From Pyronema omphalodes (Eukaryota > Ascomycota > Pezizomycetes > Pezizales > Pyronemataceae): a stretch of DNA of 64,000 nucleotides. A model generated the notes under the pieces. The model saw nothing but the letters and a program-made list of their open reading frames with translations. It did not search any database and had not been told where the DNA came from. Made by a program: the position numbers and the translations under genes. The stretch spans positions 114,287-178,286 of the forward strand of contig JAJJXM010000089.1 of the NCBI GenBank assembly GCA_024516155.1, read 5' to 3'. Below, one piece after another: positions 38,701 to 61,700 of this stretch. How positions within the stretch are numbered: position 1 is the stretch's first letter; the number at the start of each line of letters is the position of its first letter.

Positions 38701-41700
38701 ATACGACTCATCAGCGGCGACCCTTCGCATCGTGTCACATAACACGAACCGCAGCGCCACCGCACTAACAACACTGCTGAACTCAGCAGGATCCAAAATA
38801 GACATATTGCTGGTACAAGAGATTAACGTTAAAGATCCCCGGTACGCAATCACACATCCAGATTTCCTTTTGTTACTTCCCCCCCGCAGCCACCACAAAG
38901 TCAATCGCACTGCTGCCTATATCTCCCGCCTCAACCCACACGTTCGAGTCACACCAAGACCGGACGTCAGCGGAGACCCTGACCTCCAGGTACTCGAGGT
39001 CAGCACCACACTCATTCCCTCCTTTTACCTCTTAAACATCTATAATGAAAAAGACCCCCAAACAAAACTTTATACCGTTCCCCGCTCCCTTACCCCCCTC
39101 ACTCTCCCCCACCGTTGCGTGATCACAGGGGACCTCAATGCCCACCACCCTCTGTGGAACTCCCACGCACGCAGACCAGCGAGAGCAGACGTGCTGGTGG
39201 AACTGATGGAAGACCATCAATGGCAACTGGTAAACGTCCCGGACGTTCCTACTTACCACTATCGAGACGGATCGGGCTCCTCGGTCCTCGACCTGACTCT
39301 GGCAGCCCCGGCGATGGCGAGAGAAATCTCTTCTTGGGCCATTGACGACGGCATTGCCACGGGATCGGACCACGAGGTGATCCGTTTCCAAATCAACTCC
39401 TTACACCCCGACCACCACAACACCGCCGGCGACACTACGCGACTAAACTGGCGCAAGACGGACTGGGAGACCTTCACCGAAGAATTGCAACGTCTCACCG
39501 AAGCTTCCTACCCCCGGTGGTCCCACCTCCGCGCCAACCCCTCCGCCGAGAACCTCGACGAATGGGCTGCCCTCCTTCGCGACTCTATCCAAACCGCCGC
39601 CGCGATATCAACACCTACCCTCACCCCAACCCCGCGGTCGAAGAGATGGTGGACGGAAGAGGTACGCCTGACACGTAAAGACATGACCCGGGCCAGGAGG
39701 AGATGGAAACAGACCCGCCTTCCCCAACACCTCGCCGTATACAAACAGTCTCGAAACGCCCACTACAGGAAAGTCCGACATGCAAAGGACTCCATGTGGA
39801 AGGAATACTTAGCCGCGGTGGAAGGACCAGACATATGGGCGGCCTTCCGATATACAAACCCGCGCCGCGCTCAATTGACACCACCGATCAAGACACAGGT
39901 AGGAGGAACGGAGAAGGTATGTGTCGACTTCGACAGTAAGGTAGAGGCCTTTCAAGCGTTATTCCCTCCCCCCCCAGCTGCCCCCCCCACGCGCACCTCA
40001 CGACCCAACCCCCAACTCCCCTGGAAAACATTCACCCCCGAAGAAGTTCGTACCGCTATCACAACATCCTCCCCCAAGAAAGCCCCCGGCCCGGACTCCA
40101 TCACGTTCGCGTGCCTCAGGAAGGCATACGATGCAGTCCCCAAAGTTTTCAACGCCCTGTACTCAACCTTAGGAACGAAAGGATATCATCCGCGGAGCTG
40201 GCGAGAGGCCACGACGGTGGTGATACCCAAACCAAACAAACCGGACTATAGCGCCATAAAGGCATACCGCCCGATCGCCTTACTCAACTGCTTGGGCAAG
40301 GTGTTAGAAAAACTCATGGCGACCCGGCTCAGCCTTATGGCGGAGTCACACGACATCCTGCATAAGGACCAGATTGGCGGGCGCCCAAAACGCTCGGCAA
40401 TTGACGCCGCGATGGCACTGACACATGAGGTAGAAGTTAACGCAGGAAATCGCTTCGTGACGTCTGCCCTATTTTTAGATGTACGAGGAGCTTTCGATAA
40501 CGTCTCCTCCGCCAGATTACTGGCAACTATGCACTCACTCGGCTGCCCACAGGCGGTGATATCGTGGTGTTCCTCATTCTTAAGTGACCGCACAACCGCC
40601 CTATCCTTTGACGGCAGAACAGACTCACAGCGACCAATTCAAACCGGCATTCCCCAGGGATCCCCCGCGTCGCCAATACTCTTCCTCATCTACCTTCGCC
40701 CCCTCTTTGACGCCTTACAATCCGAACACCCGACCCTGTGGACCCCTAGCTATATAGACGACGTTGCCTTGGTGGCCCATGGACGAACGAGAGAACAAAA
40801 TGCGCGCGCCCTGGAAGCAGCCGCTCGCACCGCATTCAACTGGGCGCAGACAAACGCGGTAGCATTCGACGATTCCAAATCGGAGATGCTGCACTTCCAT
40901 AAGTCGCGAATCGACGAACACAGCGAAGCAACAAACGTGCGCTTACCTAACGGCACCATAGTCACCCCTGGGACTCAAGGAGGCAGCAAGGACGTGGTCC
41001 GGTGGATTGGCATACATTTTGATCGCAAACTTTCCTTTTCCCAACATGTAAAAATAAGACTGACGGCCGCCGCTAGGTCCCTCAACGCCCTCCGAAGTTT
41101 GGTACGTCACGAAACAGGTCTGTCCCCCTCAGCGACCCGTACACTTTATCAAGCGTGTGTAACCTCTAGGTCGGATTTTGGCTCTGAGATCTGGTGGAAT
41201 GGACAAAAAGGACTGGCCAGCACACTACAAACGCAACAAAACTCCGCCCTACGCCGCATACTAAACGCATTCACATCGACCCCCATAGTGGCCCTACACA
41301 ACGAAGCCGCCATACCCCCCGTCGCAGTTCGCCTTCAACGCCGCAGCCGCAAATACGTTCTCCGCCTCCTCTCCCTCCCCCCTTCCCACCCCGTAGTTAG
41401 ACGCTGCCCTTCCTCCTTCCCCGTGCCCAACCACTTCCCCACCTCCATATGTGACCCGTCCGAATATGACCACCCCTGGAACACCACCCAGAAAGCCCCC
41501 TCGCGCCTCGTTCGCATGCTCCGCTCCGTCAGTCAGTGGATATTGCCAGACGACGTAATCGAGGACACGGCACACCCAAATCCCACCCCGTGGATAAGCT
41601 CACCCCTACGAATAAAGATATCCTCCCTCCCCAAACCCGAAGCCGCCGTCGAACACCTCTCGCTGATCCGCGACCTGAGTGACGACAAAACCAACATTAT

Positions 41701-42694
41701 CGCCTATACAGACGGCTCCCAACTCGAAGGAAAAACAGGCGCCGGATACTGCATCACCTCAGGTTTCCCCCGTCAAGTCAACGAATCCATCCCCATGGGC
41801 ACGACCACGGAAGTGTTCGACGCCGAACTACGAGCAATTCACGACTGCCTCGAGATGTGCTACAAAATCATCTCCCACAACCACCTCCGACGCCGCCGGC
41901 TACACGTCTTTACAGACAACCAGGCGGCCATCCTCCGCGCCTCCCGCACAACATATGGCCCGGGCCAAGAGCTCGCTCGCGCTATACACGACATCGCCTC
42001 CTCCCTCCGTTCCAAAGACACATCCGTCACCTTACATTGGGTCCCAGGACATACCGACATACCCGGGAATGACCAAGCCGACCTCCTCGCCAAAACTGCA
42101 ACCACCCTAACTCCCCCCTCTTCGCTACCGGTCTCCCTGTCCTGGATACACCGACAAATTCACGATCAGTACATCCAAGACTGGACGACCTGGTACTCCT
42201 CCGCGCCGAAACTTAAAACATACGACGCCCCACACCGTCGACGCCTCGACCATGCCTACACGGCCCTACCACGCAAACTATCAACCGCAATCTTGGGATT
42301 GCGAACCGGACACGGTTATTTTTTGGACTGCCTTGCTCATCCCCCCACCGCCCAATACCCCTCCCGCTCGTGCTCATGCCCCCTTCACCCTCCGCAATCC
42401 CCCAAACATCTCATTCTCCCGTGCCCCCACTTCACTTCCCAACGGACCGAACTGCGACGCACACTGAAAATCCCACGACGACGACACCTCACACTACCGA
42501 CAATCTTACACACCACCGCCGGAACCAAAGCACTGTCCGCTATGATCTCAGAGACCAAGATAGCGACTGCGGAGTGGGCTCACGCAAGGTTAAGTAAACT
42601 CCCCGCTGAGGAGGACACATCTGCTACGCTGACAACAGACTGGGGGACGCTGCTGGACCTGACGGACGAGCACGCGGTTACCTCTAATAATTAA
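38693..42694 (+). CDS. LINE-A(+)1 ORF2, endonuclease-reverse transcriptase-RNase H, intact
   Basis: 1333 residues. APE endonuclease at 1-230 with SHNTNR, LVQEINVKD, GDLNAHHPLW and ATGSDHEVI. Linker with a Pro-rich hinge near 422 (ALFPPPPAAPP). RT about 460-790 with KKAPGPDSITFACLR, ALFLDVRGAFDNVS, GIPQGSPASPILF and YIDDVALV (about 685). RNase H about 1000-1130 with YTDGSQLEG, EVFDAELRAIHD, FTDNQAA and HWVPGHTDIPGND, so all acidic residues are present. C-terminal CSCPLHPPQSPKHLILPC near 1226. It nicks target DNA and copies the RNA in place. Tad1-like clade by architecture. Confidence 0.95.
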   Translation: MNRYDSSAATLRIVSHNTNRSATALTTLLNSAGSKIDILLVQEINVKDPRYAITHPDFLLLLPPRSHHKVNRTAAYISRLNPHVRVTPRPDVSGDPDLQVLEVSTTLIPSFYLLNIYNEKDPQTKLYTVPRSLTPLTLPHRCVITGDLNAHHPLWNSHARRPARADVLVELMEDHQWQLVNVPDVPTYHYRDGSGSSVLDLTLAAPAMAREISSWAIDDGIATGSDHEVIRFQINSLHPDHHNTAGDTTRLNWRKTDWETFTEELQRLTEASYPRWSHLRANPSAENLDEWAALLRDSIQTAAAISTPTLTPTPRSKRWWTEEVRLTRKDMTRARRRWKQTRLPQHLAVYKQSRNAHYRKVRHAKDSMWKEYLAAVEGPDIWAAFRYTNPRRAQLTPPIKTQVGGTEKVCVDFDSKVEAFQALFPPPPAAPPTRTSRPNPQLPWKTFTPEEVRTAITTSSPKKAPGPDSITFACLRKAYDAVPKVFNALYSTLGTKGYHPRSWREATTVVIPKPNKPDYSAIKAYRPIALLNCLGKVLEKLMATRLSLMAESHDILHKDQIGGRPKRSAIDAAMALTHEVEVNAGNRFVTSALFLDVRGAFDNVSSARLLATMHSLGCPQAVISWCSSFLSDRTTALSFDGRTDSQRPIQTGIPQGSPASPILFLIYLRPLFDALQSEHPTLWTPSYIDDVALVAHGRTREQNARALEAAARTAFNWAQTNAVAFDDSKSEMLHFHKSRIDEHSEATNVRLPNGTIVTPGTQGGSKDVVRWIGIHFDRKLSFSQHVKIRLTAAARSLNALRSLVRHETGLSPSATRTLYQACVTSRSDFGSEIWWNGQKGLASTLQTQQNSALRRILNAFTSTPIVALHNEAAIPPVAVRLQRRSRKYVLRLLSLPPSHPVVRRCPSSFPVPNHFPTSICDPSEYDHPWNTTQKAPSRLVRMLRSVSQWILPDDVIEDTAHPNPTPWISSPLRIKISSLPKPEAAVEHLSLIRDLSDDKTNIIAYTDGSQLEGKTGAGYCITSGFPRQVNESIPMGTTTEVFDAELRAIHDCLEMCYKIISHNHLRRRRLHVFTDNQAAILRASRTTYGPGQELARAIHDIASSLRSKDTSVTLHWVPGHTDIPGNDQADLLAKTATTLTPPSSLPVSLSWIHRQIHDQYIQDWTTWYSSAPKLKTYDAPHRRRLDHAYTALPRKLSTAILGLRTGHGYFLDCLAHPPTAQYPSRSCSCPLHPPQSPKHLILPCPHFTSQRTELRRTLKIPRRRHLTLPTILHTTAGTKALSAMISETKIATAEWAHARLSKLPAEEDTSATLTTDWGTLLDLTDEHAVTSNN

Positions 42695-43495
42695 AAAAAA
42701 AAAAAAAACAAAAAAAAAATAATAATAATAAAAAGAAGTCGGAGGAGGACGAAGGGAGGGAGAAGCGGGAGGCGAGAGCGGAGAGAGAGACGAGGGAGAG
42801 GGGAGATGGAGGAAGCGGACGATGACGAGGGGAGAGTGGAGACGGGAGACTGGGAGAGCGGAGGCGTGGTTGTTGTGGAGAATGGAGTGTTGTGTTTTTC
42901 CTTTTTTTTTGAAACGGGAATGAAAGTGAGGCGAGGAGTCGAGGGAGAGGAGAGACGCGGTGGAGACGGACGGGAGGAGCACGAATGAGGCGAGTACGAG
43001 ATGGTGACGCGGAGAGAAGTGGACGGAGCGGGACGATGGACGGCTGGCGAGCCGAGAGGGAGGAGCGTGGTGAAGGGCGAGGGGAGGGACGTAGAGTGGG
43101 GTAGTGGCACAGGGGAGAGAGGTGCGGAGGGGGGGCGTTGACCCGGAGGAGTTATATCTTCTTTTCTTTTCTTTTGCTTGTTTGTTTTTGCTTTGTGGAG
43201 GAAATAAAGGTGGAAAAACGGTTAAAAAAGGGAGGGGAAGGGTGGAGGAAATGGGGGAACGACCCGGCGAGGTGGCCTCCGAGCGTACAGGGCTCCTGGA
43301 ACAGACGACGCTTGACGAACAAAGAACACAACGAGACTTGGGGGTCTACAACCCCACACCCTAACGACAAGCTCTGGGGCATACCCAGTGAGAGCCTGGC
43401 CTGACACCCGGGTTTCTTAATTTTGTATTTACTGTAGATTCCGCCATAACCTTACGGTTGGATGCGTGTATGAGTTAATAAATAAATAAATAAAA
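42695..43495 (+). other. LINE-A(+)1 3' UTR, hairpin and AAAT tail
   Basis: A poly-A run starts at once after the ORF2 stop. Then come a (AAT)n stretch, 350 bp of purine-rich sequence, and the shared module (GGAAATAAAGGTGGAAAAAC at about 43199, CCCGGCGAGGTGGCCTC near 43263). The hairpin AACC-TTAC-GGTT (43448-43459) and ataaataaataaataaaa close the element. No gene. Confidence 0.82.
43448..43459 (+). other. LINE-A 3'-terminal hairpin
   Basis: AACC, loop TTAC, GGTT. Counterparts: 11905-11916 (loop TTAA), 49841-49852 and 63377-63388 (loop TTCG), 53867-53878 (TTAC). Stem is constant while loop and flanks change by family. Likely recognised by RT; inference. Confidence 0.6.
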
Positions 43496-45141: not shown

Positions 45142-45216
45142 ACCCACATCAACAACCATCATTTCAATCGCGGATTCCTTGTCGCTACCGCAGAAACAAC
45201 TTATTCCGAACCTCCG

Positions 45217-47128
45217 ATGCCCACCCGATCCTCCGCTGTTGAGAAACAGCCCCTCCCCCCCGACAAAGCGCCCCCTCGAGCGCTCGCGAAAGAAAAACGC
45301 GCTAACGCAGAGCCGCACGAGTCCGACGCGTCCGACGTTGAGATGCACGTAGACACGTGCTCTGACGTCAGCGAGGATTCCAGCGACGACGACGCGTCTC
45401 CCCGAGACAGCTCCCCAACGCCAACTTCTCGCAACACCACCAACGCCCCACCCAAAACACCCCACAACAAAAAACCCCTCCCTGTAAACTCCGACACCCC
45501 CGATCAACTGAGCAACAATGACCCCAAATACTCCATCCAACAAACCACCGGAAAACAGAAAAAACGCCCCGCCGCCTCCACTGCCCATACTATCACCCAT
45601 ATCGCCGAAGACTCCACCCCCGTTCCTGCAAACGTCAAACGACTCCACCCCGACATCGCTCCGATCAACGCCACACCTCCCAGCAACGCCGACCTCGCTC
45701 AATCCATCGACGTCCTCCACCACAATCTTGCCACCACCGCGGACATGTTTCGTCACGCCGACCAGACAACGAACGACAGAATCAACAAAGCGTTCAAGAC
45801 AATCAACAAGAACCAGTCCCTCCTCCAATCCATCTACGATGCCGTCCAACTCCTCGCCCCGTCCCTCCTACCGAAAGGAACAGCTACCGCCGTGTCCCCC
45901 ACCCCCGTCTCCGCATCCTTCACCCCCCTCGAGACCACCAGCCCCGATACCCAACCCGCTAACGCCCCTCTCGATCTACCCTCCAAACATGCCCCCCGCC
46001 TCTGCGAAGCCGAGTACTGGAAGCAGAGGTGCTTGAACGCCGAAGCTGAACTCCGGAAGAACGAGCTCACTCCTCCCCCTCACCTACCCCCTCCCCCACC
46101 CCAGGCGAACGAACCGTGGCAAGGACCAATACCCTCGTCCGTCAAGCTGTTCAAAGAGAAAGCCGCTGCCCCATCAATGACCCCCCCTAAGACCACCAAA
46201 CCCAATCCCCAACGCAAGAACCCCCCCCCGCGTCCAAGACATTGTGATCCCCTGCCCTGACCCCCGTGCCCTGCCCGATAGCTCTAAGGCCGCCATTGGA
46301 TTAGCCATCAACGAAGCCCTACGCAAGGCGAAGGTGGAAGGAAACATCATGACGGTTAGGAAAAATATGGCAGGAAGCCTCATGCTTACCCCCTCCCCGA
46401 ACACATCCATTACCGATCTCACCCCCCACCTCTCAGTTATCCACGCCGCTGCCTGCACAGTCCACCCCGACCTCTTGCCCCCCCGACTTAACGAAAAATG
46501 GTATAAGCTGGCAGTCCACGGAATCCCCACGGACTACTACGAGGACACCGCGGGGGGTATGCAAAAATTGCAGCAAGAAATCGAGACGAACCACAGCGTA
46601 CGCCTGACACAACCCCCAAGGTACATCTCTCACCCGGACAAGCGTGTTGGTAAGACCGCCTCCAGTGTGATGATCGCACTGAAGTCCAGCGAGGAATACA
46701 ACCCCCTCAAGAGAACAAAGGTGACAGTATTATTCGAACAACGCAAGGTGACAGAATTCTTCACCGCCCGTTCCATTGACCAATGCCGCAGGTGCCAGAA
46801 ATTTGGACATCATCACGCAATCTGCCCAGCTGACAATGGCCCCGCTTGCGCGATATGCGCCGCCCCTCACCCCACCGAATATCACCAATGCGGCCAGTGC
46901 CCCACAATCCAGGGCCGCAAATATCAACACACCCTCTACAAGTGTGCAAATTGCGTCGCCGCTGGCCACACAGACGTCCACCACGCCGCATACAGCACCC
47001 GCTGCCCCGTCAAAGTGAACGTCGTCAGGGAAGCCTGGCAGAAGACCCGCCCGGAGACAACACCCCTAGACGCCATCCCCGCCGAAATGAACCCCATCGC
47101 CGACACCACCATGACCACTGATGAATAG
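45217..47128 (+). pseudogene. LINE-A(+)2 ORF1, single-base frameshift
   Basis: Same protein as 36790-38700 with few substitutions. A run of nine C at 46221-46229 is eight C in LINE-A(+)1; the extra base breaks the frame after NPQRKNPPP. The rest (46244-47128) holds the RNA-binding-like region and knuckles; in the third one GRKCQH has become GRKYQH. Its TAG overlaps the ORF2 ATG at 47121. Confidence 0.9.
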
Positions 47129-47899
47129 ATACGACTCATCAGCGGCGACCCTTCGCATCGTGTCACATAACACGAATCGCAGCGCCACCGCACTAACAAC
47201 ACTGCTGAACTCAGCAGGATCCAAAATAGACATATTGCTGGTACAAGAGATTAACGTTAAAGATCCCCGGTACGCAATCACACATCCAGATTTCCTTTTG
47301 TTACTTCCCCCCCGCAGCCACCACAAAGTCAATCGCACTGCTGCATATATCTCCCGCCTCAACCCACACGTTCGAGTCACACCAAGACCGGACGTCAGCG
47401 GAGATCCTGACCTCCAGGTACTCGAGGTCAGCACCACACTCATTCCCTCCTTTTACCTCTTAAATATCTATAATGAAAAAGACCCCCAAACAAAACTATA
47501 TACCGTCCCCCGCTCCCTTACCCCCCTCACTCTCCCCCACCGTTGCGTGATCACAGGGGACCTCAATGCCCATCACCCTCTGTGGAACTCCCACGCACGC
47601 AGACCAGCGAGAGCAGACGTGCTGGTGGAACTGATGGAAGACCATCACTGGCAACTGGTAAACGTCCCGGACGTTCCTACTTACCACTATCGAGACGGAT
47701 CGGGCGCTTCGGTCCTCGACCGGACTCTGGCAGCCCCGGCGATGGCGAGAGAAATTTCTTCTTGGGCTATTGACGACGGCATTGCCACGGGATCGGACCA
47801 CGAGGTGATCCGTTTCCAAATCATCTCCTTACACCCAGACCACCACAACACCGCCGGCGACACTACGCGACTAAACTGGCGCAAGACGGACTGGGAGAC
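47121..47899 (+). pseudogene. LINE-A(+)2 ORF2, endonuclease part
   Basis: Endonuclease with SHNTNRS, LVQEINVKD, GDLNAHHPLW and ATGSDHEVI, open up to NWRKTDWET, where NAR-C(+) enters. In front of the catalytic region VLDLTLA reads VLDRTLA. The gene continues at 49888. Confidence 0.9.
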
Positions 47900-48097
47900 A
47901 CACCACACGGCAACGGCGACCCCCCCCCCTGCATTCTCAACAACGAGCACCGAAACCCCCGGTTTTCTCATCGGATTCGGATTCGCAGCACTCTGTTACG
48001 TTATTCTCTGAATTTTCAGGGAATTCTACGTTGTTTTTGTTGACTTTTGTCGCAAAATCAGAGTTTTCACGAGTTTTGGCTTACCCCACCTCACGAA
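47900..48097 (+). promoter_or_regulatory. NAR-C(+) 5' UTR with shared 5' motif
   Basis: GGCGACCCCCC...CTGCATTCTCAACAA near 47914-47945 matches the LINE-A and LINE-B 5' ends; the rest is specific to NAR-C. Likely holds the promoter; not shown. Confidence 0.5.
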
Positions 48098-49552
48098 ATG
48101 TCGCCAAAACAACGACAGAACAACGCCCAACGATCGAAACGGTCCGGAAACGCGTATAATGTTCTAGCCGACCTTCCTCATGATGGATCTAATCCTACTT
48201 TCGATGGAAGAGATGGAAAAGTTGATGAAGTTGATGGAAACTTCGCTGGAAAACCCTTCCAGAGCGTGGTCTTGGCAGGATCACCAGTTCCTTCGGCTTC
48301 AACACACCAGCAACAAGCGACAACTGACCAAAGCCGGTTCAGTACATACCGTCGCAATATTGTATCTGCCATTAATCGGGCAGCCCTGGTTGATGACAAT
48401 TATGCCTCCCTTGACCAATTTTTTTATGACAGCTACCCCGAAGTCGCTGGAGCCAGCTTCCTGGGGATACAACAGATCCACCAGGACACACAGCGACGCT
48501 TCAATACCCTCGATGACACCATACGCAACAACAGCGATGAGATGCGCCACAGATTCGACGTCATGATGACGAAATTCAACGTTCTGCTCGGCGAAAACAC
48601 GAAGCTGCGCGCAGCATACGACTCTACGCAGGCAGAAACAGCAGCTCTCAAGGCTGCTGTGGACGCCCTGACGAAGAAAATCGACGAACAGCAACAAGTC
48701 ATTTCGGCGCCCCCCTCACCGAACCTCACGGCCTCTTCCTCAGCGATGGAAGAGATGACTATGCAACTGTCCGTCGTCCAACATGACATTCAGGATGTCC
48801 TGGACGCTGTTCGCAACCCTCCTGGCAAGAGAAAGCGAAGGGGAAGCGACCAGAACACCGAACCCACCTCACCGACAAACAGAAGACCGGTGAACCACAA
48901 ACCGAGAGCGGCATCACCGGTGCGAAGCCTGATGCACTCGAAACATGCGACTACCGCCGCCCAGGACAAGCTTGATGCCCTCAAGCCTATGTCCCCCCTA
49001 CCTCTCCTCGCGATCACATCGACCGAAGCGACACCGGAACCTCACCCTGACAGTCCATCTGCTCAGGACACACCTCTACCCGACGCCCCAAGCACTGCCC
49101 CTGTTGAGACCGACGGCTGGAAGACTGTGGAGGCAAAGGCTACACAGAGGAAGAAGCAGAAAGCGAAGGAGACGACACCTGCGGCAGCGCCACCCAGCAA
49201 GACCCCTACAACAAAGAATGGTGGACGGGGAAAGAACACCCACCAACCCAGAACGACAACCTCCTCTGCAAAGAAGACTTGGGCAGAAGTCGTCAAGAGC
49301 GGAGGCATCAACGTCCAGATTGTGCTTGGGAATGGCAATCTTGGACTGACAACACCACCGACAAGAAGGGGAGAGAGGCGAGGGGGAGCAGCGAGGAGGC
49401 TGAGGAAGAAGGAAGGAGAAGGGGAGAGAGGGGAGGAGAAGAGGGGCAGGGCGGGCCCGGGTGTCTCAAAGGGCAAAGAGTCAGGAGACACCGGCGGAGG
49501 AGGGAAGAGAGGAGAGGAGAGTGGGGGCAGGGGTGGCCCGGCGGCTGTTTAA
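48098..49552 (+). CDS. NAR-C(+) ORF, ORF1-like coiled-coil protein of unknown function
   Basis: 484 codons from ATG 48098, open to TAA just before the shared 3' module. Same layout as 26220-27674: basic N-terminus, coiled coil, KRKRRGSDQN linker, KKTWAEVVKSGG, Arg/Gly/Glu-rich tail. By hand count about 38 residues of 501 differ (including the 17 before ATG), mostly within the first 120, while coiled coil and linker are almost unchanged. The even reading frame and uneven divergence hint at selection on the protein. No catalytic motif or zinc finger is visible. Confidence 0.74.
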   Translation: MSPKQRQNNAQRSKRSGNAYNVLADLPHDGSNPTFDGRDGKVDEVDGNFAGKPFQSVVLAGSPVPSASTHQQQATTDQSRFSTYRRNIVSAINRAALVDDNYASLDQFFYDSYPEVAGASFLGIQQIHQDTQRRFNTLDDTIRNNSDEMRHRFDVMMTKFNVLLGENTKLRAAYDSTQAETAALKAAVDALTKKIDEQQQVISAPPSPNLTASSSAMEEMTMQLSVVQHDIQDVLDAVRNPPGKRKRRGSDQNTEPTSPTNRRPVNHKPRAASPVRSLMHSKHATTAAQDKLDALKPMSPLPLLAITSTEATPEPHPDSPSAQDTPLPDAPSTAPVETDGWKTVEAKATQRKKQKAKETTPAAAPPSKTPTTKNGGRGKNTHQPRTTTSSAKKTWAEVVKSGGINVQIVLGNGNLGLTTPPTRRGERRGGAARRLRKKEGEGERGEEKRGRAGPGVSKGKESGDTGGGGKRGEESGGRGGPAAV

Positions 49553-49887
49553 CTTTGCTTTGGTTTTGTTTTTGCTTTGTGGCGGAAATAAAGGCGGAAA
49601 AATGGTTAAAAATGGGAGGGGAAGGGAGGAGGAAAGGGAGGAGCCCGGCGAGGCGGCCTCTGTGCAAGCAGGGCACTTGGAACATCAGACGCGCTTGGAC
49701 AAGAAACCCCCGTAGTATACAGTGGGGACAGACCCCACAACCACAACGATCAAGAGGAGGAGACTGGTAGAGGTGGAGACTGGGTTTTTGCTTTTACATT
49801 TCTTTCTTCTTCTCTTTTGTATTTATCTGTCCCTTGTCATAACCTTCGGGTTGCAAACAAGTAATGAGAGAACAAACAAACAAACAA
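49553..49887 (+). other. NAR-C(+) 3' module, hairpin and AAAC tail
   Basis: Nearly the same as the last 300 bp of LINE-B(+) and LINE-B(-), including CCCGGCGAGGCGGCCTC, TTTATCTGTCCCTTGTCATA, the hairpin and gagagaacaaacaaac. Confidence 0.85.
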
Positions 49888-52800
49888 ACGGACTGGGAGA
49901 CCTTCACCGAAGAATTGCAACGTCTCACCGAAGCTTCCTACCCCCGGTGGTCCCACCTCCGAGCCAACCCCTCCGCCGAGAACCTCGACGAATGGGCTGC
50001 CCTCCTTCGCGACTCTATCCAAACCGCCGCCGCGATATCAACACCTACCCTCACCCCAACCCCGCGGTCGAAGAGATGGTGGACGGAGGAGGTACGCCTG
50101 ACACGTAAAGACATGACCCGGGCCAGGAGGAGATGGAAACAGACCCGCCTTCCCCAACACCTCGCCGAATACAAACAGTCTCGAAACGCCCACTACAGGA
50201 AAGTCCGACATGCAAAGGACTCCATGTGGAAGGAATACTTAGCCGCGGTGGAAGGACCAGATATATGGGCGGCCTTCCGATATACAAACCCGCGCCGCGC
50301 TCAATTGACACCACCGATCAAGACACAGGTAGGAGGAATGGAGAAGGTATGCGTCGACTTCGACAGTAAGGTAGAGGCCTTTCAAGCGTTATTCCCTCCC
50401 CCCCCAGCTGCCCCCCCCCACACGCACCTCACGACCCAACCCCCAACTCCCCTGGAAAACATTCACCCCCGAAGAAATTCGTACCGCTATCACAACATCA
50501 TCCCCCAAGAAAGCCCCCGGCCCGGACTCCATCACGTTCGCGTGCCTTAGGAAGGCGTACAATGCAGTCCCCAAAGTTTTCAACGCCCTGTACTCAACCT
50601 TAGGAACGAAAGGATATCATCCGCGGAGCTGGCGAGAGGCCACGACGGTGGTGATACCTAAACCAAACGAACCGGACTATAGCGCCATAAAGGCGTACCG
50701 CCCGATCGCCTTACTCAACTGCTTGGGCAAGGTGTTAGAAAAACTCATGGCGACCCGGCTCAGCCTTATGGCGGAGTCGCACGACATCCTGCATAAGGAC
50801 CAGATTGGCGGGCGCCCAAAACGCTCGGCAATTGACGCCGCGATGGCACTGACGCATGAGGTAGAAGTTAACGCGGGAAATCGCTTCGTGACGTCTGCCC
50901 TATTTTTAGATGTACGAGGAGCTTTCGATAACGTCTCCTCCGCCAGATTACTGGCAACTATGCACTCACTCGGCTGCCCACAGGCGGTAATATCGTGGTG
51001 TTCCTCATTCTTAAGTGACCGCACAACCGCCCTATCCTTTGACGGCAGAACAGATTCACAGCGACCAATTCAAACCGGCATTCCCCAGGGATCACCCGCG
51101 TCGCCAATACTCTTCCTCATATACCTTCGCCCCCTCTTTGACGCCTTACAATCCGAACACCCGACCCTGTGGACCCCTAGCTATATAGACGATGTTGCCT
51201 TGGTGGCCCATGGACGAACGAGAGAACAAAATGCGCGCGCCCTGGAAGCAGCCGCTCGCACCGCATTCAACTGGGCGCACACAAACGCGGTAGCATTCGA
51301 CGATTCCAAATCGGAGATGCTGCACTTCCATAAGTCGCGAATCGATGAACACAGCGAAGCAACAAACGTGCGCTTACCCAACGGCACCATAGTCACCCCT
51401 GGGACTCAAGGAGGCAGCAAGGACGTGGTCCGGTGGATTGGCATACATTTTGATCGCAAACTTTCCTTCTCCCAACATGTAAAAATAAGACTGACGGCCG
51501 CCGCTAGGTCCCTCAACGCCCTCCGAAGTTTGGTACGTCACGAGACAGGTCTGTCCCCCTCAGCGACCCGTACACTTTATCAAGCGTGTGTAACCTCTAG
51601 GTCGGATTTTGGCTCTGAGATCTGGTGGAATGGACAAAACGGACTGGCCAGCACACTACAAACGGAACAAAACTCCGCCCTACGCCGCATACTAAACGCA
51701 TTCACATCGACCCCCATAGTGGCCCTACACAACGAAGCCGCCATACCCCCCGTCGCAGTTCGCCTTCAACGCCGCAGCCGCAAATACGTTCTCCGCCTCC
51801 TCTCCCTCCCCCCTTCCCACCCCGTAGTTAGACGCTGCCCTTCCTCCTTCCCCGTGCCCAACCACTTCCCCACCTCCATATGTGACCCGTCCGAATATGA
51901 CTACCCCTGGAACACCACCCGGAAAGCCCCCTCGCGCCTCGTTCGCATGCTCCGCTCCGTCAGTCAGTGGATATTACCAGACGACGTAATCGAGGACACG
52001 GCACACCCCAATCCCACCCCGTGGATACGCTCACCCCTACGAATAAAGATATCCTCCCTCCCCAAACCCGAAGCCGCCGTCGAACACCTCTCGCTGATCC
52101 GCGACCTGAGTGACGACAAAACCAACATTATCGCCTATACAGACGGCTCCCAACTCGAAGGAAAAACAGGCGCCGGATACTGCATCACCTCAGGTTTCCC
52201 CCGTCAAGTCAACGAATCCATCCCCATGGGCACGACCACGGAAGTGTTCGACGCCGAACTACGAGCAATTCACGACTGCCTCGAGATGTGCTACAAAATC
52301 ATCTCCCACAACCACCTCCGACGCCGCCGGATACACGTCTTTACAGACAACCAGGCGGCCATCCTCCGCGCCTCCCGCACAACATATGGTCCGGGCCAAG
52401 AGCTCGCCCGCGCTATACACGACATCGCCTCCTCCCTCCGTTCCAAAAACACATCCGTCACCTTACATTGGGTCCCAGGACATACCGACATACCCGGGAA
52501 TGACCAAGCCGACCTCCTCGCCAAAACTGCAACCACCCTAACTCCCCCCTCTTCGCTACCGGTCTCCCTGTCCTGGATACACCGACAAATTCACGATCAG
52601 TACATCCAAGACTGGACGACCTGGTACTCCTCCGCGCCGAAACTTAAAACATACGACGCCCCACACCGTCGACGCCTCGACCATGCCTACACGGCCCTAC
52701 CACGCAAACTATCAACCGCAATCTTGGGACTGCGAACCGGACACGGTTATTTTTTGGACTACCTTGCCAATCCCCCCACCGCCCAATACCCCTCCCGCTC

Positions 52801-53125
52801 GTGCTCATGCCCCCTTCACCCTCCGCAATCCCCCAAACATCTCATTCTCTCGTGCCCCCACTTCACTTCCCAACGGACCGAACTGCGACGTACGCTGAAA
52901 ATCCCACGACGACGACACCTCACACTACCGACAATCTTACACACCACCGCCGGAACCAAAGCACTGTCCGCTATGATCTCAGAGACCAAGATAGCGACTG
53001 CGGAGTGGGCTCACGCAAGGTTAAGTAAACTCCCCGCTGAGGAGGACACATCTGCTACGCTGACAACAGACTGGGGGACGCTGCTGGACCCGACGGACGA
53101 GCACGCGGCTACCTCTAATAATTAA
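49888..53125 (+). pseudogene. LINE-A(+)2 ORF2, linker to RNase H, one frameshift
   Basis: Resumes at TDWETFTEELQ. At 50411-50419 nine C replace eight in the proline hinge (LFPPPPAAPP) and shift the frame; RT to the end is then open, and the frame can be read from VIPKPNEPDYS at 50648 to 53125. RT has YIDDVALV, RNase H has YTDGSQLEG and HWVPGHTDIPGND; all motifs are intact. Apart from the extra C and the insertion it matches LINE-A(+)1 closely. Confidence 0.9.
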
Positions 53126-53917
53126 AAAAAAAAAAAAAGGAAAAAATAATAATAAAAAGAAGTCGGAGGAGGACGGAGGGAGGGAGAAGCGGGAGGCGAG
53201 AGCGGAGAGAGAGACGAGGGAGAGGGGAGATGGAGGAAGCGGACAATGACGAGGAGAGAGTGGAGACGGGAGACTGGGAGAGCGGAGGCGTGGTTGTTGT
53301 GGAGAATGGAGTATTGTGTTTTTTCTTTTTGAAACGGGAATGAAAGTGAAGCGAGGAGTCGAGGGAGAGGAGAGACGCGGTAGAGACGGACGGGAGGAGC
53401 ACGAATGAGGCAAGTGCGAGATGGTGACGCGGAGAGAAGTGGACGGAGTGGGACGATGGACGGCTGGCGAGCCGAGAGGGAGGAGCGTGGTGACGGGCGA
53501 GGGGAGGGACGTAGAGTAGGGTAGTGGCACAGGGGAGAGAGGTGCGGTGGGGGGGCGTTGACCCGGAGGAGTTATATCTTCTTTTCTTTTCTTTTGCTTG
53601 TTTGTTTTTGCTTTGTGGAGGAAATAAAGGTGGAAAAACGGTTAAAAAAGGCAGGGGAAGGGTGGAGGAAATGGGGGAACGACCCGGCGAGGTGGCCTCC
53701 GAGCGTACAGGGCTCCTGGAACAGACGACGCTTGACGAACAAAAGCACAACGAGACTTGGGGGTCTACAACCCCACACCCTAACGACAAGCTCTGGGGCA
53801 TACCCAGTGAGAGCCTGGCCTGACACCCGGGTTTCTTAATTTTGTATTTACTGTAGATTCCGCCATAACCTTACGGTTGGATGCGTGTATGAGTTAATAA
53901 ATGAATAAATAAATAAA
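53126..53917 (+). other. LINE-A(+)2 3' UTR, hairpin and AAAT tail
   Basis: As in LINE-A(+)1: poly-A after the stop, purine-rich stretch, shared module near 53625-53720, hairpin at 53867-53878, tail aataaatgaataaataaata. Confidence 0.82.
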
Positions 53918-56571
53918 TTTGCTCGGTACTGGAGTGTTCCTTGGTGATGGCGAGAATCGGTGATGTCTTCGTCTTCCCACTCTTCTTCATTGTTGAGGAT
54001 TATAGGTGGAGGCAGGGGTCGAAGGTGCCCGGGGATGGGAGGATTCCTGTGGGATGCGGGTTGCAGTAGGGAGACGTGGAATACTGGGTGGATTTTTACA
54101 CTGGGGGGAAGGTCCAATTTATAGGCTCTGGAGCCTATTTTGTTGAGGATGGTGTATGGGCCGATAAGCTCGTAGTCCAGCTTATTTGAGGGGCGGGTGG
54201 TTTTCACGAACTTCCGGCGCAGCCTTACCTTATCTCCTCGTTCTAGTACCGGATCCAGTCTTCTCTTCTTGTTGGCCTGTTCTGCTTGCGCATTTTGGGC
54301 CCATAGTATTTCCGCTCGGAGTTCTTTCTGCAGGGTAGTTAAGGTGGATATGTACTTGGATACTTCCGGTGTGGGGGCTGCAACTATGGCTAGGTCTGGT
54401 TCGAAGCGGGGGTGGTATCCGAAATTTGCGTAGAAGGTGGTGACTCCGGTGGACTCTGATTTCACATTGTTGTAGCAAAACTCCGCTATAGGCAGGAGTT
54501 TTTTCCAGTTCGTTTGCTGGTAGTTACAGTATGCCCATAGATATTGCTGGAGGGTGGCGTTTGTTTGTTCGGTTTGTCCGGCGGTTTCCGGGTGGAAGGC
54601 TGTGCTGAGATTCCTTGTCGTTCGCATAGTTGCCATGACTTGTTTCCAGAATTTTGACGTCAACAGTGACCCTCTGTCGGAGATAATACTGTTGGGCAGT
54701 CCATGCGGCCTCACGATGTGGTTTATAAACCCTTCCGCTAAATCCCCAGGTCCCATCGTATCCTTACATGCCACGAAGTGTGCCAGCTTTGTGAGCCTGT
54801 CCACAATGACCCATAATGCGTTACAATTGTCCACGTCTGGTAACTCTGTGAGGAAGTCCATAGAGACTGAATCCCATGGTCTTGTCGGAAGTTGTACTGG
54901 TTTTAGGAGGCCGAATGGGGCGTGTCGGATGGGTTTTGTTCTTTTGCACGTATCACAATTGTCTACGTATCGGTGAACGTATTGCCGATGTTGTGGCCAG
55001 TAATACCTCCGTACCAACAGTTCGAGTGTTGTCGCCCTACCCGCGTGTCCTGCGATGGGAACCTCCTGGTGATCGTACATTATTTTCAGGCGGAGTTTCT
55101 CGTTTGCTGGTATCCGTATAAGTCCTTCGTAAGTTAGTGTCCCGTCTCTTTCTTCACATAATCCTAACGCCACATGGGGGTCATATTTTTCTTTTGCTCT
55201 CAGTTTCCGAATTATGCTTTGTATCTCCTTATCTTCTTTCGTTTTTTCTTGGATTTCTTTGAGTAGGTCTCTGTCTGCTTCCAGTGCAATCAACTACGTG
55301 GAGTTGATTTGGAAGTTTTCGTTTGGTAGCAGAATTCTTCCTTGATTCTGTCTGTGTTTTACGTCACCCTCCCAGGGCGAGTCTCCTGACTCGCGAGACA
55401 GGATGTCCGGCTTTCCTGCGAGTTTTTCCGGTCTGTATGATATTAAGAAATCATAGTTCGCCAGTTGCTCTCCCCATCTTGCTTGTCTTAAGTTTAAGTC
55501 TTTTTTTGTTTGCCAGTATTCTAGATTTTTATGATCCGTTAATAGAGTAATCTTATGTTGGCTGTTTTTACAATACGTTGACCATTCTTGCAGGCTGTCC
55601 ACTATTGCAAGGAGTTCCTTGTCGTGGATGTCGTAATTTCTTTTGGCATCTTTTAGTTTTCTTGAGAAGTATCCCAGGGGATGGAGGATTCTGAGGTCAT
55701 CTGGTTGCGAACAGACGGCTCCTATGGCGTAATCGGATGCATCGGTCTCGAGGGTGATTGGTCTGGCGGGCTGAAAATGTTGCAGGATGGGTTGGGAGAT
55801 TAATGCTTGTTTTAATTCGTCGAAAGCATTTTGGGCGTTGTCAGTCCATTTGAAGGGGGTGTCTTTTCTTGTTAATTTGGTGAGGGGGGTTGTGATTTTG
55901 CTGAAGTCTCGCACGAATCTCCTATGGAAGTTCGCAAAGCCGAGGAAGCTTTGAATACCTTTGACGTTGGTAGGTTCCTTCCATTCTTGGACTGTTTCTA
56001 TTTTTTCAGGGTCCATAGAAATGCCGTCCGGGGAGATAATATATCCGAGGTATTCTGTTTTTTTGTATGGAATTCGCATTTGGAGGCTTTCAGTGTGAGT
56101 CCTAGTTCCTGCATTCCTTTTGATATTTTCGTGACGTGTTGTTGATGCTGTCGCAGGGCGTCCAAGTAAATTGACACATCATCGAGATATGCAATACAAA
56201 AGATGTCCATGGAGTCGCTTAGGACTTCGTTCATCCACCGCTGGAAAGATGCTGGGGTGTTCGTAAGCCCGAACGGCATTACCAGGTATTCGTATAACCC
56301 GTATTTTGTTCGGAAGTCGGTTTTCCATTCGTCGCCCTTGGCAATGCGTAAGTAGTGATACGCATCTTTCACATCCAATTTGGTGTAGATTTTTGCTTTT
56401 GATAGGCGATCCAATGCTTCGCCAATAAAGGGGAGAGGGGTTCTATCTTTGATAGTAATAGCGTTTAATCCTCTATAGTCCACGCATAGTCGTAATCCCC
56501 CATCCTTTTTCTTTACGAAGTGTATCGGGGCTCCGGCCGGGGAGTTTAAGCTCCTGATCCACCCCTTTTTT
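53918..56571 (-). pseudogene. pol: Gyp3 Pol, RT to chromodomain, broken
   Basis: RT from [15 protein letters not shown] (56560) through [10 protein letters not shown] (about 56190), RNase H with LETDASDYAIG and HDKELLAIVDSL, and the chain KPDILSRESGD. Integrase follows: finger NCDTCKRTK intact, SMDFLTELP, IISDRGSLLTSKF, AFHPETAGQTEQTN. Then the first half of the chromodomain. Two lesions: an A-run near 56063 is one base short, shifting the frame between CEFH and KKTEYLGY, and TAG at 55294-55296. Divergent from Gyp1 and Gyp2, so a different lineage. Confidence 0.9.
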
Positions 56572-57016
56572 TTTTTTTTAACTTCACCACACAGCAACCG
56601 CTGACCCCCCCTGCATTTGCGACAACAACAACAATTTCCCCGATTTTCGAATCGGCAATCCATTTCTTACCTCGGAATTACCCCGAATCTCGATTTTCGG
56701 AACCCAGCTACCGTTTACCGTTGAGATTCAGCGGAAAAACGCGATTCTGGGACCTCCGGGCCGGATTCCGGGCACTTTCATCAACGCCGCTCCACCACCC
56801 GCCCCCCAATCATCAAACCGACCTTATTTTCGGTTTCGGCATACCGAGTTCCCCCCCCCCCCCCAAATCCCCCCCCCACCAGCAGCACTGGTTGTGGTGA
56901 TCCCCCAAATTTCCCCCCCTCCGGACCCCTGTCCTCGCGAGAAATTTTCGTGCTCGCTTAGCAAGAGCCTCCTCACGTGACTCTTCGCCATCGCTTACCT
57001 CACCACCGGTTAAGCG
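56572..57016 (+). promoter_or_regulatory. LINE-B(+) 5' UTR with shared 5' motif
   Basis: CAACCGCTGACCCCCCCTGC at 56595-56614, followed by GCGACAACAACAAC. Long C-runs near 56847-56880. No ORF. Probable internal promoter. Confidence 0.5.
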
Positions 57017-58702
57017 ATGGACGCTAACGCACCCATCCCCACCACGCCCTCGCGTATGCAGGTACCCGAGAATATTTTTAGCCCCGACGAGCTTTCCCGA
57101 ATCAACGCTCCGCACCCTGGCTCCTCCGCCATCGCGACCTCTAAGAAATCAACGACCGTCTCTGGAAAAGTCACCAAACGCCCCACCAAAAAATCCGACT
57201 CTAGACTTGGCCTCGACCTCCTCCGCAAAAATGCCACCCGACCGGAAACAAACACCCCCGTGAACCTCGATGGGACCCCCACCGAAACAATGCCGACCGC
57301 TATGGACACTGATAGCTGCCCCGACACCGACTCCGAATCCGACTCTGACCTGAACCTCAACGACAGCCAGCACGCAATAACTACTTCCGACGTCAACCTC
57401 GCAACCTTATCCGAACTGATCAAGACGACCATCATGCATCTCCTCCGCCCGATGAACCAACGCCTCGAGACAGTTACCAAACGCATCGATAAACTACACC
57501 GAACCAACACCCAGCCCCGAACCGACCACCTCGCCGACAACCCCCCGACCGCCCCCGACACCGCACCCGCCACCACGCCCACCGCCAACGACATACACCA
57601 TTGGATGGCGAGATGCCACATGCTCGAAGGAATCTTGCGCAGCAACAACATCGCCATCCCCCTCGACGCACCCCGGACTACAACACGCCCCTCCAACGCA
57701 CCCTCGGCGCCGTGGGCGGACCCCTCCAAGACCAAAACTCTCCTCAAAGCCAACCCCCCCACCAACCCCACACCCGCCACTAAACCGCACCCCCGACGCC
57801 AACGCACCCGCCCCCAGTCCGTCATCATACCCTTCCCACACCCTGCGGAAATCGACGTCAATACCAAAGCCCAACTGGGAAGGGCGATCAACGCTGCACT
57901 CACCCAGACACAGGCGCCGCCTCACATGGCTGTCGCCACGATCAGACAAGCCACATCAGGAAACCTCATCGTGACCATGACAGACGGCACCACTGAATCC
58001 GAGCTGACCGAGAACCTAGGGACCATACACACAGCGACGCGACAGGTCAACACCTCCATCGCCGCACCCCGCCTGAACGAGCGGTGGTATAAGCTCGCAG
58101 TTCCTGGAATCCCCACGAGCCAATACCCCGACTCCCCCGACGGAATGCGCTCCCTCCAGGAGGAGATCGAACGCAGCAACGGACCTGTCACCCTGGCGCA
58201 ACCCCCCCAATATATGACGACCGCGGAGAAACGTGTGGGCAAGGAAGCGTCCAGTGTGGTTATTGCGGTACGTACCGCCGAAGACCTCGCACTCCTGAAG
58301 CGCAAACGAGTCATGGTACTCTTCGAGCCCCGAAGAGTCACCGAGTACCACTCTGCCCGACGGACCGACCAGTGTCGGCGCTGCTTGCTCTTTGGCCACC
58401 ACTACACCAACTGCACTGGACCGCAAGGCCCCACCTGCGGCATCTGCGGCCAGAACAACCCCACGGACGACCACGCCTGCGACGACTGCCCCCAAAGCAA
58501 AGGTAAGAGTTGTGAGCACACTAGATACCATTGCAAAAACTGCGCGGACGCCAACCTCCCCGACCTCGACCACCCAGGCTTCAGCAAGCAATGCCCCGTA
58601 CGCATCCGCATATTCAAAGAAGCCTGGACAGCGTCACAAAACCCCGCCGCCGCCCCACCCAACCCAGCCGACGGAGACACTGAGATGAACGCCCATGTCT
58701 AG
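57017..58702 (+). CDS. LINE-B(+) ORF1, Gag-like RNA-binding protein, intact
   Basis: 561 residues from MDANAPIPTTPSRMQ. Acidic DTDSCPDTDSESDSD at about 97-113, a helical segment around 130-165, Pro-rich stretch to 270, then an RNA-binding-like region (RWYKLAVPGIPTSQYPD, KRVGKEASSVVIAV). Three knuckles end the protein: CRRCLLFGHHYTNC, CGICGQNNPTDDHAC and CKNCADANLPDLDH. Compared with LINE-B(-), the segment after DVNLATLSELIKTT is quite different, suggesting a replaced or recombined middle part. TAG overlaps ORF2 ATG 58695. Confidence 0.9.
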   Translation: MDANAPIPTTPSRMQVPENIFSPDELSRINAPHPGSSAIATSKKSTTVSGKVTKRPTKKSDSRLGLDLLRKNATRPETNTPVNLDGTPTETMPTAMDTDSCPDTDSESDSDLNLNDSQHAITTSDVNLATLSELIKTTIMHLLRPMNQRLETVTKRIDKLHRTNTQPRTDHLADNPPTAPDTAPATTPTANDIHHWMARCHMLEGILRSNNIAIPLDAPRTTTRPSNAPSAPWADPSKTKTLLKANPPTNPTPATKPHPRRQRTRPQSVIIPFPHPAEIDVNTKAQLGRAINAALTQTQAPPHMAVATIRQATSGNLIVTMTDGTTESELTENLGTIHTATRQVNTSIAAPRLNERWYKLAVPGIPTSQYPDSPDGMRSLQEEIERSNGPVTLAQPPQYMTTAEKRVGKEASSVVIAVRTAEDLALLKRKRVMVLFEPRRVTEYHSARRTDQCRRCLLFGHHYTNCTGPQGPTCGICGQNNPTDDHACDDCPQSKGKSCEHTRYHCKNCADANLPDLDHPGFSKQCPVRIRIFKEAWTASQNPAAAPPNPADGDTEMNAHV

Positions 58703-61700
58703 CTACAACAGACTGGCAGCAACCATACGGATCGTCTCCCACAACGTGAACCGACAACGAACAGCACTCGATGCGCTGCTGAATAGCGCACACAACACAG
58801 CCGACATAATCCTAATACAAGAAATTTACATTACCGACATAACATACGCCACCACACACCCATCGTTCACTCTGGTCTTGCCACCGCGTGGGGATAGAAC
58901 CACCAACAGAACAGCCGCCTATGTGACCAGGACAAACCCATACCTCAGGGTTGCTCAGCGCACCGATATATGCGCGGATCCTGACCTCCAGGTCCTTGAG
59001 GTAGGCACCGACTTAATTCCTTCTTTCTTTCTTCTTAATATGTACAACGAAAAACACCCCGAAAGCAATATTTATACCATCCCGAGAGCCCTCACCCCCC
59101 TCCCCCTCCCCCGCAGGTGCATCATCACAGGTGACCTCAACGCTCACCATGCCCTGTGGAACTCCTCCACACGTTCCCCCACCCGCGCCACCGAAATAGT
59201 TGACCTCATCGAACAACGAGACTGGACCCTCGTGTCCGTCCCTGACATTCCCACCTACTACTACAACCAAGGCCGCAGTTCTTCCGTCCTCGACCTGACC
59301 CTAGCATCGCCCCACATGGCAGAGAAAACAATCAACTGGGCAATTGACGACGACAACGCTACGGGATCCGACCATGAAGTCATAAGATTCGAAGTGCACA
59401 CAACCCACCCAGACGCTGAAACAACCCCCCCAACAAACCGACTGAACTGGAAAAAGACGGATTGGGAGCTCTTCGCCGAAACCCTCCGTGCCTCGTGCTT
59501 AGCCCTCACACCTTCATGGACACAATACCGCAACCACCCTACCACAGACAACCTCGATGCGTGGGCGGAGTCAATACGTGATGCCATCCTTAATGCCGCG
59601 ACTACGTCCACCCCCGTACTACAAGTGACCCCACAATCGAAAAGATGGTGGACCGCAGAAGTCACCGAGGCAAGGAAAAAGATGACCAAAGCAAGACATA
59701 AGTGGAAACGCAAACGTGACGATAGATCCCACCTAAACTACAAACAACACCGAAACGAATACCACAGGACCATTCGAACGGCGAAAGATGCAAAGTGGAA
59801 GGAATATCTTTCCCAAGCCGAAGGACCCGATGTGTGGCAGGCGTTTAGGTACACCAACCCTCGGCGTGCTCAGCTAACACCAAACCTCCGCGCAATGATA
59901 AACGGCCAAGAAACAATCTGCAGCTCCTTCGACGCAAAGGTAGAGGCCTTCCAAAAGTTGTTTCCCCCGCCGCCGCCACCACCGCCTCCGTCCGTCCTCC
60001 CCCCGCGCCGCGAGTTGCAGTGGACAACCTTTACACCGACAGAGGTAGAAACAGCGATATTCTCCTCCTCGCCGAAGAAGGCGCCCGGACCCGATGGGCT
60101 CACATTCGCCTGCCTACGCCAAGCATACCTTGCCATCCCCGAACACATGAACAACCTCTACGCCACATTAGGGACGGTAGGCTACCATCCGCGATGCTGG
60201 CGCCAGGCCACCACAGTCATTATCGCCAAACCTAACAAGCCGGATTACAGCAATCCAAAGGCATACCGTCCGATTGCGCTCCTAAACTGCCTTGGGAAGA
60301 CCCTCGAAAAACTAATGGCCACTCGCCTAGGCACGATGGCAGACTCTCAGGACTTACTACATAGGGACCAAATAGGTGGACGCCCGCAGAGATCAGCAAT
60401 TGACGCGGCGATGGCGCTGGTGCACGACGTCGAGATTGGGAAATCTCACGGAATGCTAACCTCTGCCCTCGTCCTCGATGTTCGTGGAGCGTTCGACAAC
60501 GTCTCTGCTGACCGCCTCCAACAAACATTACGACAGCTTGGGTGCCCGCGACCAGTAGTATCGTGGTGCCAGTCTTTCCTCGCAGATCGCACGATCGCTC
60601 TAGCGTTCGATGGGCGAACTGACACGCAACGCCCAGTGCAAACAGGCATCCCACAAGGTTCCCCTGCATCCCCCATACTTTTCTTATTATACCTCCGCCC
60701 ATTATTCGACGAACTAGCGCAGGTACACCCGTACGCCTGGACACCTAGCTACATTGACGACGTAGCGATCGTCGTCCAGGGACGCACCAGAAAAGCGAAC
60801 GCCCGCGCACTTAAGAACATTACGACAACAGCCTTTCGGTGGGACGACGCAAACGCCGTTGCATTTGACGATGCCAAGTCAGAGCTCCTGCATTTCCACT
60901 GGGCACGCACCGACAGCATCACTGAGGAGGAAAAAGTTAAGTTACCAAACGGTACAGTTATCACACCGGGAACACAAGGAGGAGAGAAGGATGTTGTGAG
61001 GTGGATAGGCCTGTATTTAGATAGGAAACTTAACTTTAGAAAACATGTAGCTAGACGAGTAACCGCCGCCCAAAGAACTCTGAACGCACTGTGTAGGTTA
61101 GCACGGTACGAAACAGGTCTGTCCCCCGCTGCTACAAGACTAATCTACCAGGCGTGTGTCCAGTCGAGAGCAGACTACGGCGCAGAGATATGGTGGAACC
61201 AACAAAAAGACCTTGCCCGCACCCTCCAGAATCAACAGAACACCGCCCTCCGCAGGATTCTCAACGCTTTCACCTCTACTCCGATCCTGGCACTCCCCCC
61301 CGTCACAATACGTCTTGACAACCGCCAGCGCAATACGCCCTGCGCACCCTCACTTTACCCGCCTCGCACCCTATCATCACACGCTGCCCCGTCTCGTTTC
61401 CCGCCCCGAGTATCGAGGATGCCTCCATCAACCCGGACACCGAGTACGACCACCCGTGGCACGTCCCAGGACAAGCCCCGTCCCGCCTCCTGCACGTCAT
61501 CAGCACCCTCTCCCCGTGGGTCCAACCAAATGCCGAAATCGAGGACACCTCCCAAAACATCCCCGACGACGACCTCGCCCCTACATTAACGATCGACATC
61601 TCCTCCTCCCCGAAGGCTGAAGCTGCCGACGACCACCTCCTCCTCCTCCACGCCCTTCGCCAACGATCGGATACTATCCTACTGTACACGGACGGCTCTC

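Follow-up and report, generated by a model that had tools for sequence, protein, structure and literature searches.

Most LINE parasites are non-coding. Among the coding precedents, MoTeR2 of Magnaporthe oryzae is described in the cited passages as having 5' (860 bp) and 3' (77 bp) ends in common with the RT-coding element MoTeR1, with 786 bp of unrelated sequence of "no obvious function" in place of the RT coding region; if mobile, MoTeR2 is thought to borrow the RT of its partner, and MoTeRs are inserted in telomere repeats, the MoTeR1 RT having been compared with SLACS and CRE1 (PMC7367193). HeT-A of Drosophila, as portrayed in the sections cited, is a telomeric, non-autonomous LINE-type element without pol whose Gag is under apparent negative selection; it presumably takes its RT from TART or TAHRE, and TAHRE joins a very similar Gag to Pol (PMC5537684). 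HAL1 (half-L1) of mammals is, by the account cited, a non-autonomous LINE derivative whose one protein is a retained L1 ORF1p (PMC5753468), a protein reported in the cited text to evolve rapidly over an N-terminal stretch that takes in some of the coiled coil and to be conserved elsewhere (PMC5940361). MoTeR2 and HeT-A are the closest precedents for the NAR elements described below, and HAL1 is a precedent for part of their design. An earlier note on this DNA had suggested an undescribed group of coding parasites; this is borne out in part: no paper on the NAR family was found in the open-licence PMC literature, judged from the title and the start of the abstract, but MoTeR2 (PMC7367193) and HeT-A (PMC5537684), as far as the cited passages describe them, are precedents beyond SINEs.

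The window, i.e., the whole stretch of 64,000 nucleotides of Pyronema omphalodes DNA analysed here, contains two full-length copies of NAR-B (called NAR-C in the earlier note), which are collected with their surroundings in Table 1. The two copies are 95.5% identical, and inspection of the flanks confirmed a 14-bp target duplication around each, the leading few bases of both duplications being ambiguous with the (AAAC)n tail. As the note had claimed, a single ORF of 484 codons is open in both copies. No EN, RT or RNase H was detected by Pfam in the NAR protein, with all three detected in the neighbouring LINE-A ORF2, and the last ~320 bp of both copies are 94-95% identical to two LINE-B 3' ends in the window, which bears out the presence of the LINE-B 3' module on both.

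Table 1. Coordinates of the NAR-B copies, the partner LINEs and other elements in the window
Feature	Position	Strand	Basis or remark
NAR-B copy 1, full length, within a LINE-A ORF2	47900-49887	+	alignment, flanks
Target-site duplication of NAR-B copy 1, left: ACGGACTGGGAGAC	47886-47899	.	flank comparison
Target-site duplication of NAR-B copy 1, right: ACGGACTGGGAGAC	49888-49901	.	first bases ambiguous with tail
NAR-B copy 1 5' UTR, homologous to LINE-A 5' UTR (C-run motif and beyond)	47900-48097	+	alignment versus shuffles
NAR-B copy 1 ORF, 484 codons	48098-49552	+	ORF list, alignment, model
NAR-B copy 1 3' UTR: LINE-B 3' module, possible terminal hairpin UAACC-UUCG-GGUUG, (AAAC)n tail	49553-49887	+	
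NAR-B copy 2, full length	25881-27876	-	alignment, flanks
Target duplication (14 bp) of NAR-B copy 2: CAAGGCATGATGAC	27877-27890 and 25867-25880		flanks
NAR-B copy 2 ORF, 484 codons, open	26220-27674	-	
LINE-A, 5' limit approximate, (AAAT)n tail	36501-43490	+	same 3' module as NAR-A and NAR-D
LINE-A ORF1, open, 636 aa	36790-38700	+	
LINE-A ORF2, open, 1333 aa: EN, RT, RNase H	38693-42694	+	Pfam
LINE-A copy interrupted by NAR-B copy 1	45142-53909	+	5' limit is the extent of alignment
LINE-B, 5' limit approximate	56595-63421	+	3' end is the module of NAR-B
LINE-B (56595-63421) ORF1	57017-58702	+	
LINE-B (56595-63421) ORF2, interrupted in this copy	from 58695	+	
Second LINE-B copy, 5' limit approximate	29478-36172	-	ORF1 split; ORF2 open, 1288 codons, end altered
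Diverged LINE	5929-11945	+	3' end ~94% like LINE-B module over last 140 bp
Diverged LINE	12394-17713	-	3' end ~82% like LINE-A module
gag-pol ORFs resembling LTR retrotransposons	196-5030, 18236-21904, 53848-56663		by eye, ORF list

The partner LINEs of NAR encode an APE-type endonuclease (Pfam). Both LINE-B copies in the window carry lesions, and both ORFs of the window LINE-A are open. Across the genome, LINE-B ORF2 was free of stops in 28 of 36 scored matches (the altered copy of the window included), with a reported frame of 1308 codons in nearly all of these; judged from this count, which considers ORF2 frames alone, a candidate LINE-B-type helper is available in the genome.

Copies of NAR were then counted in the Pyronema omphalodes assembly (60.77 Mb, 232 contigs), a collection that the earlier note had proposed. 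A 29-base motif chosen in the conserved C-terminal region of the ORF was found at 453 places with at most 2 mismatches (235 + 218), the ORF start motif at 429 places, and the ORF motif followed by the 3' UTR motif within 224-236 bases, both exact, 311 times; because the backward-pattern controls gave 0 genome-wide in each case, these repeats are not chance. Among the 88 best-scoring of 950 candidates in a protein search, a sample hence biased toward openness, 77 copies had no internal stop and 11 had stops. Of 30 loci fetched via the 3' module, 23 could be followed without a break as far as NAR position ~160-183, where most of the loci end; strong 5' truncation is thus not typical of these best matches. 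Target duplications of 13-16 bp were present in 12 of the 14 full-length copies that were recognised by script with both flanks, while L080 and L081 had none in the stretch searched. Since the duplication lies 8-25 bases ahead of the 5' anchor motif (14 copies), some copies carry extra bases at the 5' junction. The 12 duplications have different sequences, none of them a telomere repeat. Target duplications, a 3' tail repeat and a 3' end in common with a LINE whose ORF2 is open in a number of copies are what is expected of a LINE-dependent retroposon.

Several loci deserve separate mention. NAR copies are often adjacent to or nested in each other (L006, L021, L025, L036 and L041), and at several loci they stand tail to tail, in opposite orientation, a few bases apart; a target preference for the 3' ends of elements is possible. 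L064 was considered as a template-switch chimera, with LINE-A ORF1 fused to the NAR C terminus, which would have proved a shared RT, and was rejected, as its right flank (L092) resumes LINE-A ORF1 with the duplication CGGAATCCCCAC, making it an ordinary 5'-truncated NAR-A insertion. L024 and L040 were likewise dropped as twin-priming inversions, since each half has its own 3' end and two insertions suffice.

The NAR family comprises four branches with related ORFs, NAR-A, NAR-B, NAR-D and NAR-E, which end in three different 3' modules. NAR-B has the LINE-B 3' end with (AAAC)n, and NAR-A and NAR-D have the LINE-A 3' module with (AAAT)n. The earlier note had proposed that the element hijacks the LINE-B RT through the shared 3' end; our results support a coding parasite of LINEs whose 3' end is shared, but a dependence on LINE-B only is too narrow, given the LINE-A 3' end of NAR-A and NAR-D. 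The NAR-A ORF is ~92% identical to that of NAR-B in DNA, its 3' module is 96-97% identical to LINE-A, and the passage from the ORF end into the LINE-A module is spanned by 40 scored matches at 97-100%. Ten NAR-A copies were fetched: four have an intact 484-codon ORF, one (L080) has a 482-codon ORF with a different variable segment, and in five the longest ORF is 267-289 codons. NAR-D (P0008 type) has 57-61% protein identity to the other branches and a 3' module 97% identical to LINE-A (two copies read); it is represented by 16 matches at ≥95% without stops, 11 of them over the whole length, with P0008 itself at 100%. NAR-E (P0026 type) gave 8 matches at 72-99%, of which two contain a stop, and the two frames read are 379 and 438 codons long. 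The four NAR-E 3' ends read form the third module; three of them resemble the LINE-A module at 67-69% and have an A-rich tail, and the fourth (L093) has an AAAT tail. This third module (L089-L091, L093) returned 558 first-look candidates genome-wide, and 7 of 40 that were scored lie close behind one of eight NAR-E ORFs; the rest may belong to another LINE.

By eye, NAR-B is the same as NAR-A up to a conserved block and the same as LINE-B past it, and the apparent point of 3'-module exchange is within some tens of bases common to LINE-A and LINE-B. This shared breakpoint makes it likely that the tail was switched once; in trees without L023 and L065, a monophyletic grouping of all the B-tailed copies was neither supported nor rejected (p-AU of 0.42 for the C region and 0.25 for the V region). 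The pattern AACC-NNNN-GGTT stands just ahead of the tail in examples of every 3' module, and according to the cited text, LINEs and SINEs of the stringent type commonly have a 3'-terminal stem-loop (PMC3747384). A terminal hairpin is plausible in NAR, but its fold in five sequences did not surpass that of shuffled ones (z of -1.0 to 0.6), and in LINE-A and NAR-D the lowest-energy fold pairs the hairpin bases differently. At the other end of the element, bases 2-161 of a 190-base piece of the NAR-B 5' UTR aligned to LINE-A with a score of 104 against a maximum of 50 in 200 shuffles, and still with 53 against a shuffle maximum of 37 when the first 60 bases were removed. The corresponding scores against LINE-B were 68 against 55 and then 22 against 36, so that only the first part is convincing there.

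The NAR-B ORF consists of a variable helical part (residues ~71-148), a more conserved part (~149-430) and a Gly/Arg-rich end (431-484); it carries a basic KRKRR motif, and residues 336-430 have a pI of 11.1. No Pfam family was found above the curated cut-off in the NAR protein, and a sequence search of solved structures, together with Pfam below the cut-off, returned only sporadic hits, to coiled-coil and similar proteins. AlphaFold2 predicted helices at residues 70-97, 102-201 and 214-239, consistent with the coiled coil named in the earlier note, with ten-residue mean pLDDT values of 54-90 (84-90 for residues 131-200) and the rest disordered. The model is weak overall (mean pLDDT of 54, pTM of 0.32, mostly <50 outside the helices), and no RRM-like or C-terminal domain was predicted in it. 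A total of 162 homologous proteins were found; among the 120 listed, 16 were NCBI-named (all P. omphalodes) and 104 came from JGI metagenomes. An alignment of 38 proteins, which took 37 of these 120 and consists mostly of metagenome proteins at 47-58% identity, has 26 invariant columns. For LINE-A ORF1, three related proteins were found, two of them from P. domesticum.

The idea that this protein is ORF1-like by descent, put forward in the earlier note, did not hold: hhalign against LINE-A/B ORF1 gave a probability of 1.4% (the LINE profile being thin, at 7 rows), and no CCHC motif or zinc knuckle was found in the NAR protein. These two results also weigh against the strongest alternative, a half-LINE of the HAL1 type, in which NAR arose by internal deletion of an autonomous LINE with this ORF as its ORF1, the parent being rare, extinct here or diverged past detection. 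Such an origin is suggested by the LINE-like nature of both NAR UTRs and has a known precedent of ORF1-only elements in HAL1, as described in the cited portion of the literature (PMC5753468). Against it, the ORF leads directly into the 3' UTR: of 41 distinct copies having at least 300 bp downstream, 39 reach the 3' UTR at 227-230 bp and one (L008) aligns unbroken to the 3' end, so that 40 continue into the 3' UTR, and L037, the remaining copy, is interrupted by a NAR-B insertion. The 311 exact ORF-to-3' UTR junctions point the same way, as does the lack of any Pfam domain in the 120 listed homologues, among which proteins >1.75 times the query length were not candidates. Neither Pfam nor the sequence downstream of the 41 copies revealed an autonomous APE-type LINE encoding EN and RT, and no autonomous relative was seen in genome searches that scored the best 36-94 candidates and may miss a rare one. 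On this evidence, we regard a half-LINE origin as unlikely.

The coding sequence was analysed by NG86 on 26 intact full-length CDS (22 NAR-B and 4 NAR-A) that were picked for open frames. Between NAR-A and NAR-B, dS was 0.126 and dN 0.066 over residues 1-430, with dN/dS of 0.25 for residues 201-350, 0.35 for residues 351-430 and 1.77 for residues 136-200. Comparisons between branches used one or two representatives of each: NAR-B versus NAR-D gave dS of 1.00, dN of 0.16 and dN/dS of 0.16 in residues 216-335, and dS of 0.77, dN of 0.17 and dN/dS of 0.22 in residues 216-430, where NAR-B versus NAR-E gave dN/dS of 0.19-0.30. Values of dS reached 0.78 for NAR-B versus NAR-D or NAR-E in residues 216-430 and 1.0-1.1 versus NAR-D in residues 216-335. 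Among the 26 copies, singletons in residues 216-430 were more often nonsynonymous (51/35) than shared changes (11/22; p of 0.014); this contrast is not clean, as the test was significant in one of four comparisons and the singleton ratio of 1.5:1 is below the neutral expectation of 2.4:1. A dN/dS near 1, which the earlier note had named as the outcome that would remove the case for a functional protein, was not found, the conserved parts giving 0.16-0.35. Altogether, these ratios indicate that the NAR ORF is under purifying selection, except in a highly variable, recombining N-terminal half of the predicted coiled coil.

In this N-terminal segment, dN exceeded dS in some comparisons of residues 136-215, dS was saturated in several comparisons, and dN between types was 0.67-1.4. 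L077 and L080, both with a LINE-A tail, match at 627 of 645 bases in residues 216-430 and at only 91 of 189 in residues 71-135. The B-tailed copies L029, L031, L034 and L046, a group named after the first tree was seen and analysed with rows L023 and L065 left out, cluster with NAR-A in the variable segment (support of 87/90), a grouping that the C-terminal region rejects (p-AU of 2.6e-7). The speed of this segment would also fit an arms race, in which the NAR protein counters host silencing or genome defence and is not a nucleocapsid, mobilisation needing the 3' module alone; the basic KRKRR motif can be read in the same sense. Against this reading, the layout of a variable N-terminal coiled-coil half followed by a conserved C-terminal part matches L1 ORF1p as described in the cited text (PMC5940361), and a diffusible suppressor common to all copies would account less easily for selection in cis; we judge such a role improbable, more so than a half-LINE origin. 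That the ORF is a functionless passenger, open merely through the youth of its copies, is scarcely credible: many copies are 95-99% identical, so some of the openness is due to youth, and stops have already appeared in the 11 copies noted above, but dN/dS of 0.19-0.30 at dS of up to 0.78 in NAR-B versus NAR-D and NAR-E and the 26 invariant columns speak against it.

We consider it fairly probable that NAR is instead a coding, non-autonomous LINE derivative that is copied by LINE-A- and LINE-B-type RTs and encodes a protein acting by preference on the RNA of the element itself. Such an element would combine a LINE-type 5' UTR, one ORF of ~480 codons without detectable ORF1 homology and a LINE-type 3' UTR, and a LINE-A- or LINE-B-type RT would recognise the end of the 3' module. 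The RNA would be inserted by the LINE enzymes through target-primed reverse transcription, and the basic coiled-coil protein may coat and oligomerise on its own RNA, mostly in cis, as ORF1p does. A preference for cis is to be expected because selection on the own protein of an element with a borrowed RT requires that the protein favour its encoding RNA. One lineage would have swapped the LINE-A 3' module for that of LINE-B within the short homologous block and then multiplied; as it multiplied with the exchanged module, the protein presumably tolerates at least two LINE partners. We infer mobilisation by LINE-A and LINE-B, RNA packaging and cis action of the protein from the sequence features at hand, namely, 3' modules and tails common to two LINE families, target duplications and a conserved protein. 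More tentatively, NAR could be a lineage of coding LINE parasites that has a stand-alone ORF1-like packaging protein unrelated to those of its hosts, is served by the RTs of at least two LINE families and passes from one to the other by 3'-module exchange; the hypervariable coiled-coil half, shuffled among elements, would then be a recognition code that pairs each RNA with the protein it encodes.

Compared with the described systems, NAR resembles MoTeR2 in that its ends match RT-coding elements (LINE-A at the 5' end, LINE-B or LINE-A at the 3' end) around an unrelated middle, and differs from it in its varied insertion sites, APE-type partners, ORF under selection and two partner ends. The Gag of HeT-A carries CCHC knuckles; unlike HeT-A, NAR has no CCHC motif, its duplications are not telomere repeats, and no autonomous relative comparable to TAHRE was found. 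Like HAL1, NAR has UTRs in common with a LINE and is devoid of EN and RT, whereas its protein showed no homology to LINE-A or LINE-B ORF1 at the depth of the 7-row LINE profile. The NAR protein is like L1 ORF1p in layout and unlike it in descent; its model is disordered outside the helices, and no matching Pfam family lies above the cut-off. Like the SINEs with LINE-derived 3' ends described in the cited passages (PMC3747384, PMC7983390), NAR has a 3' end and a tail repeat that match those of a partner LINE, and unlike SINEs it has retained an ORF under selection and a 5' UTR resembling that of LINEs.

Among the coding precedents compared, HAL1 keeps a relative of the host ORF1, HeT-A is telomeric, and the internal part of MoTeR2 has no obvious function. 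If the proposed reading is true, the existence of hundreds of copies whose protein is selected and unrelated and whose 3' modules can be exchanged would mean that the packaging and reverse transcription of LINEs are separable and interchangeable. Cis-preference would also become testable, as related ORFs are found in nature combined with either of two LINE tails and with several types of coiled coil.
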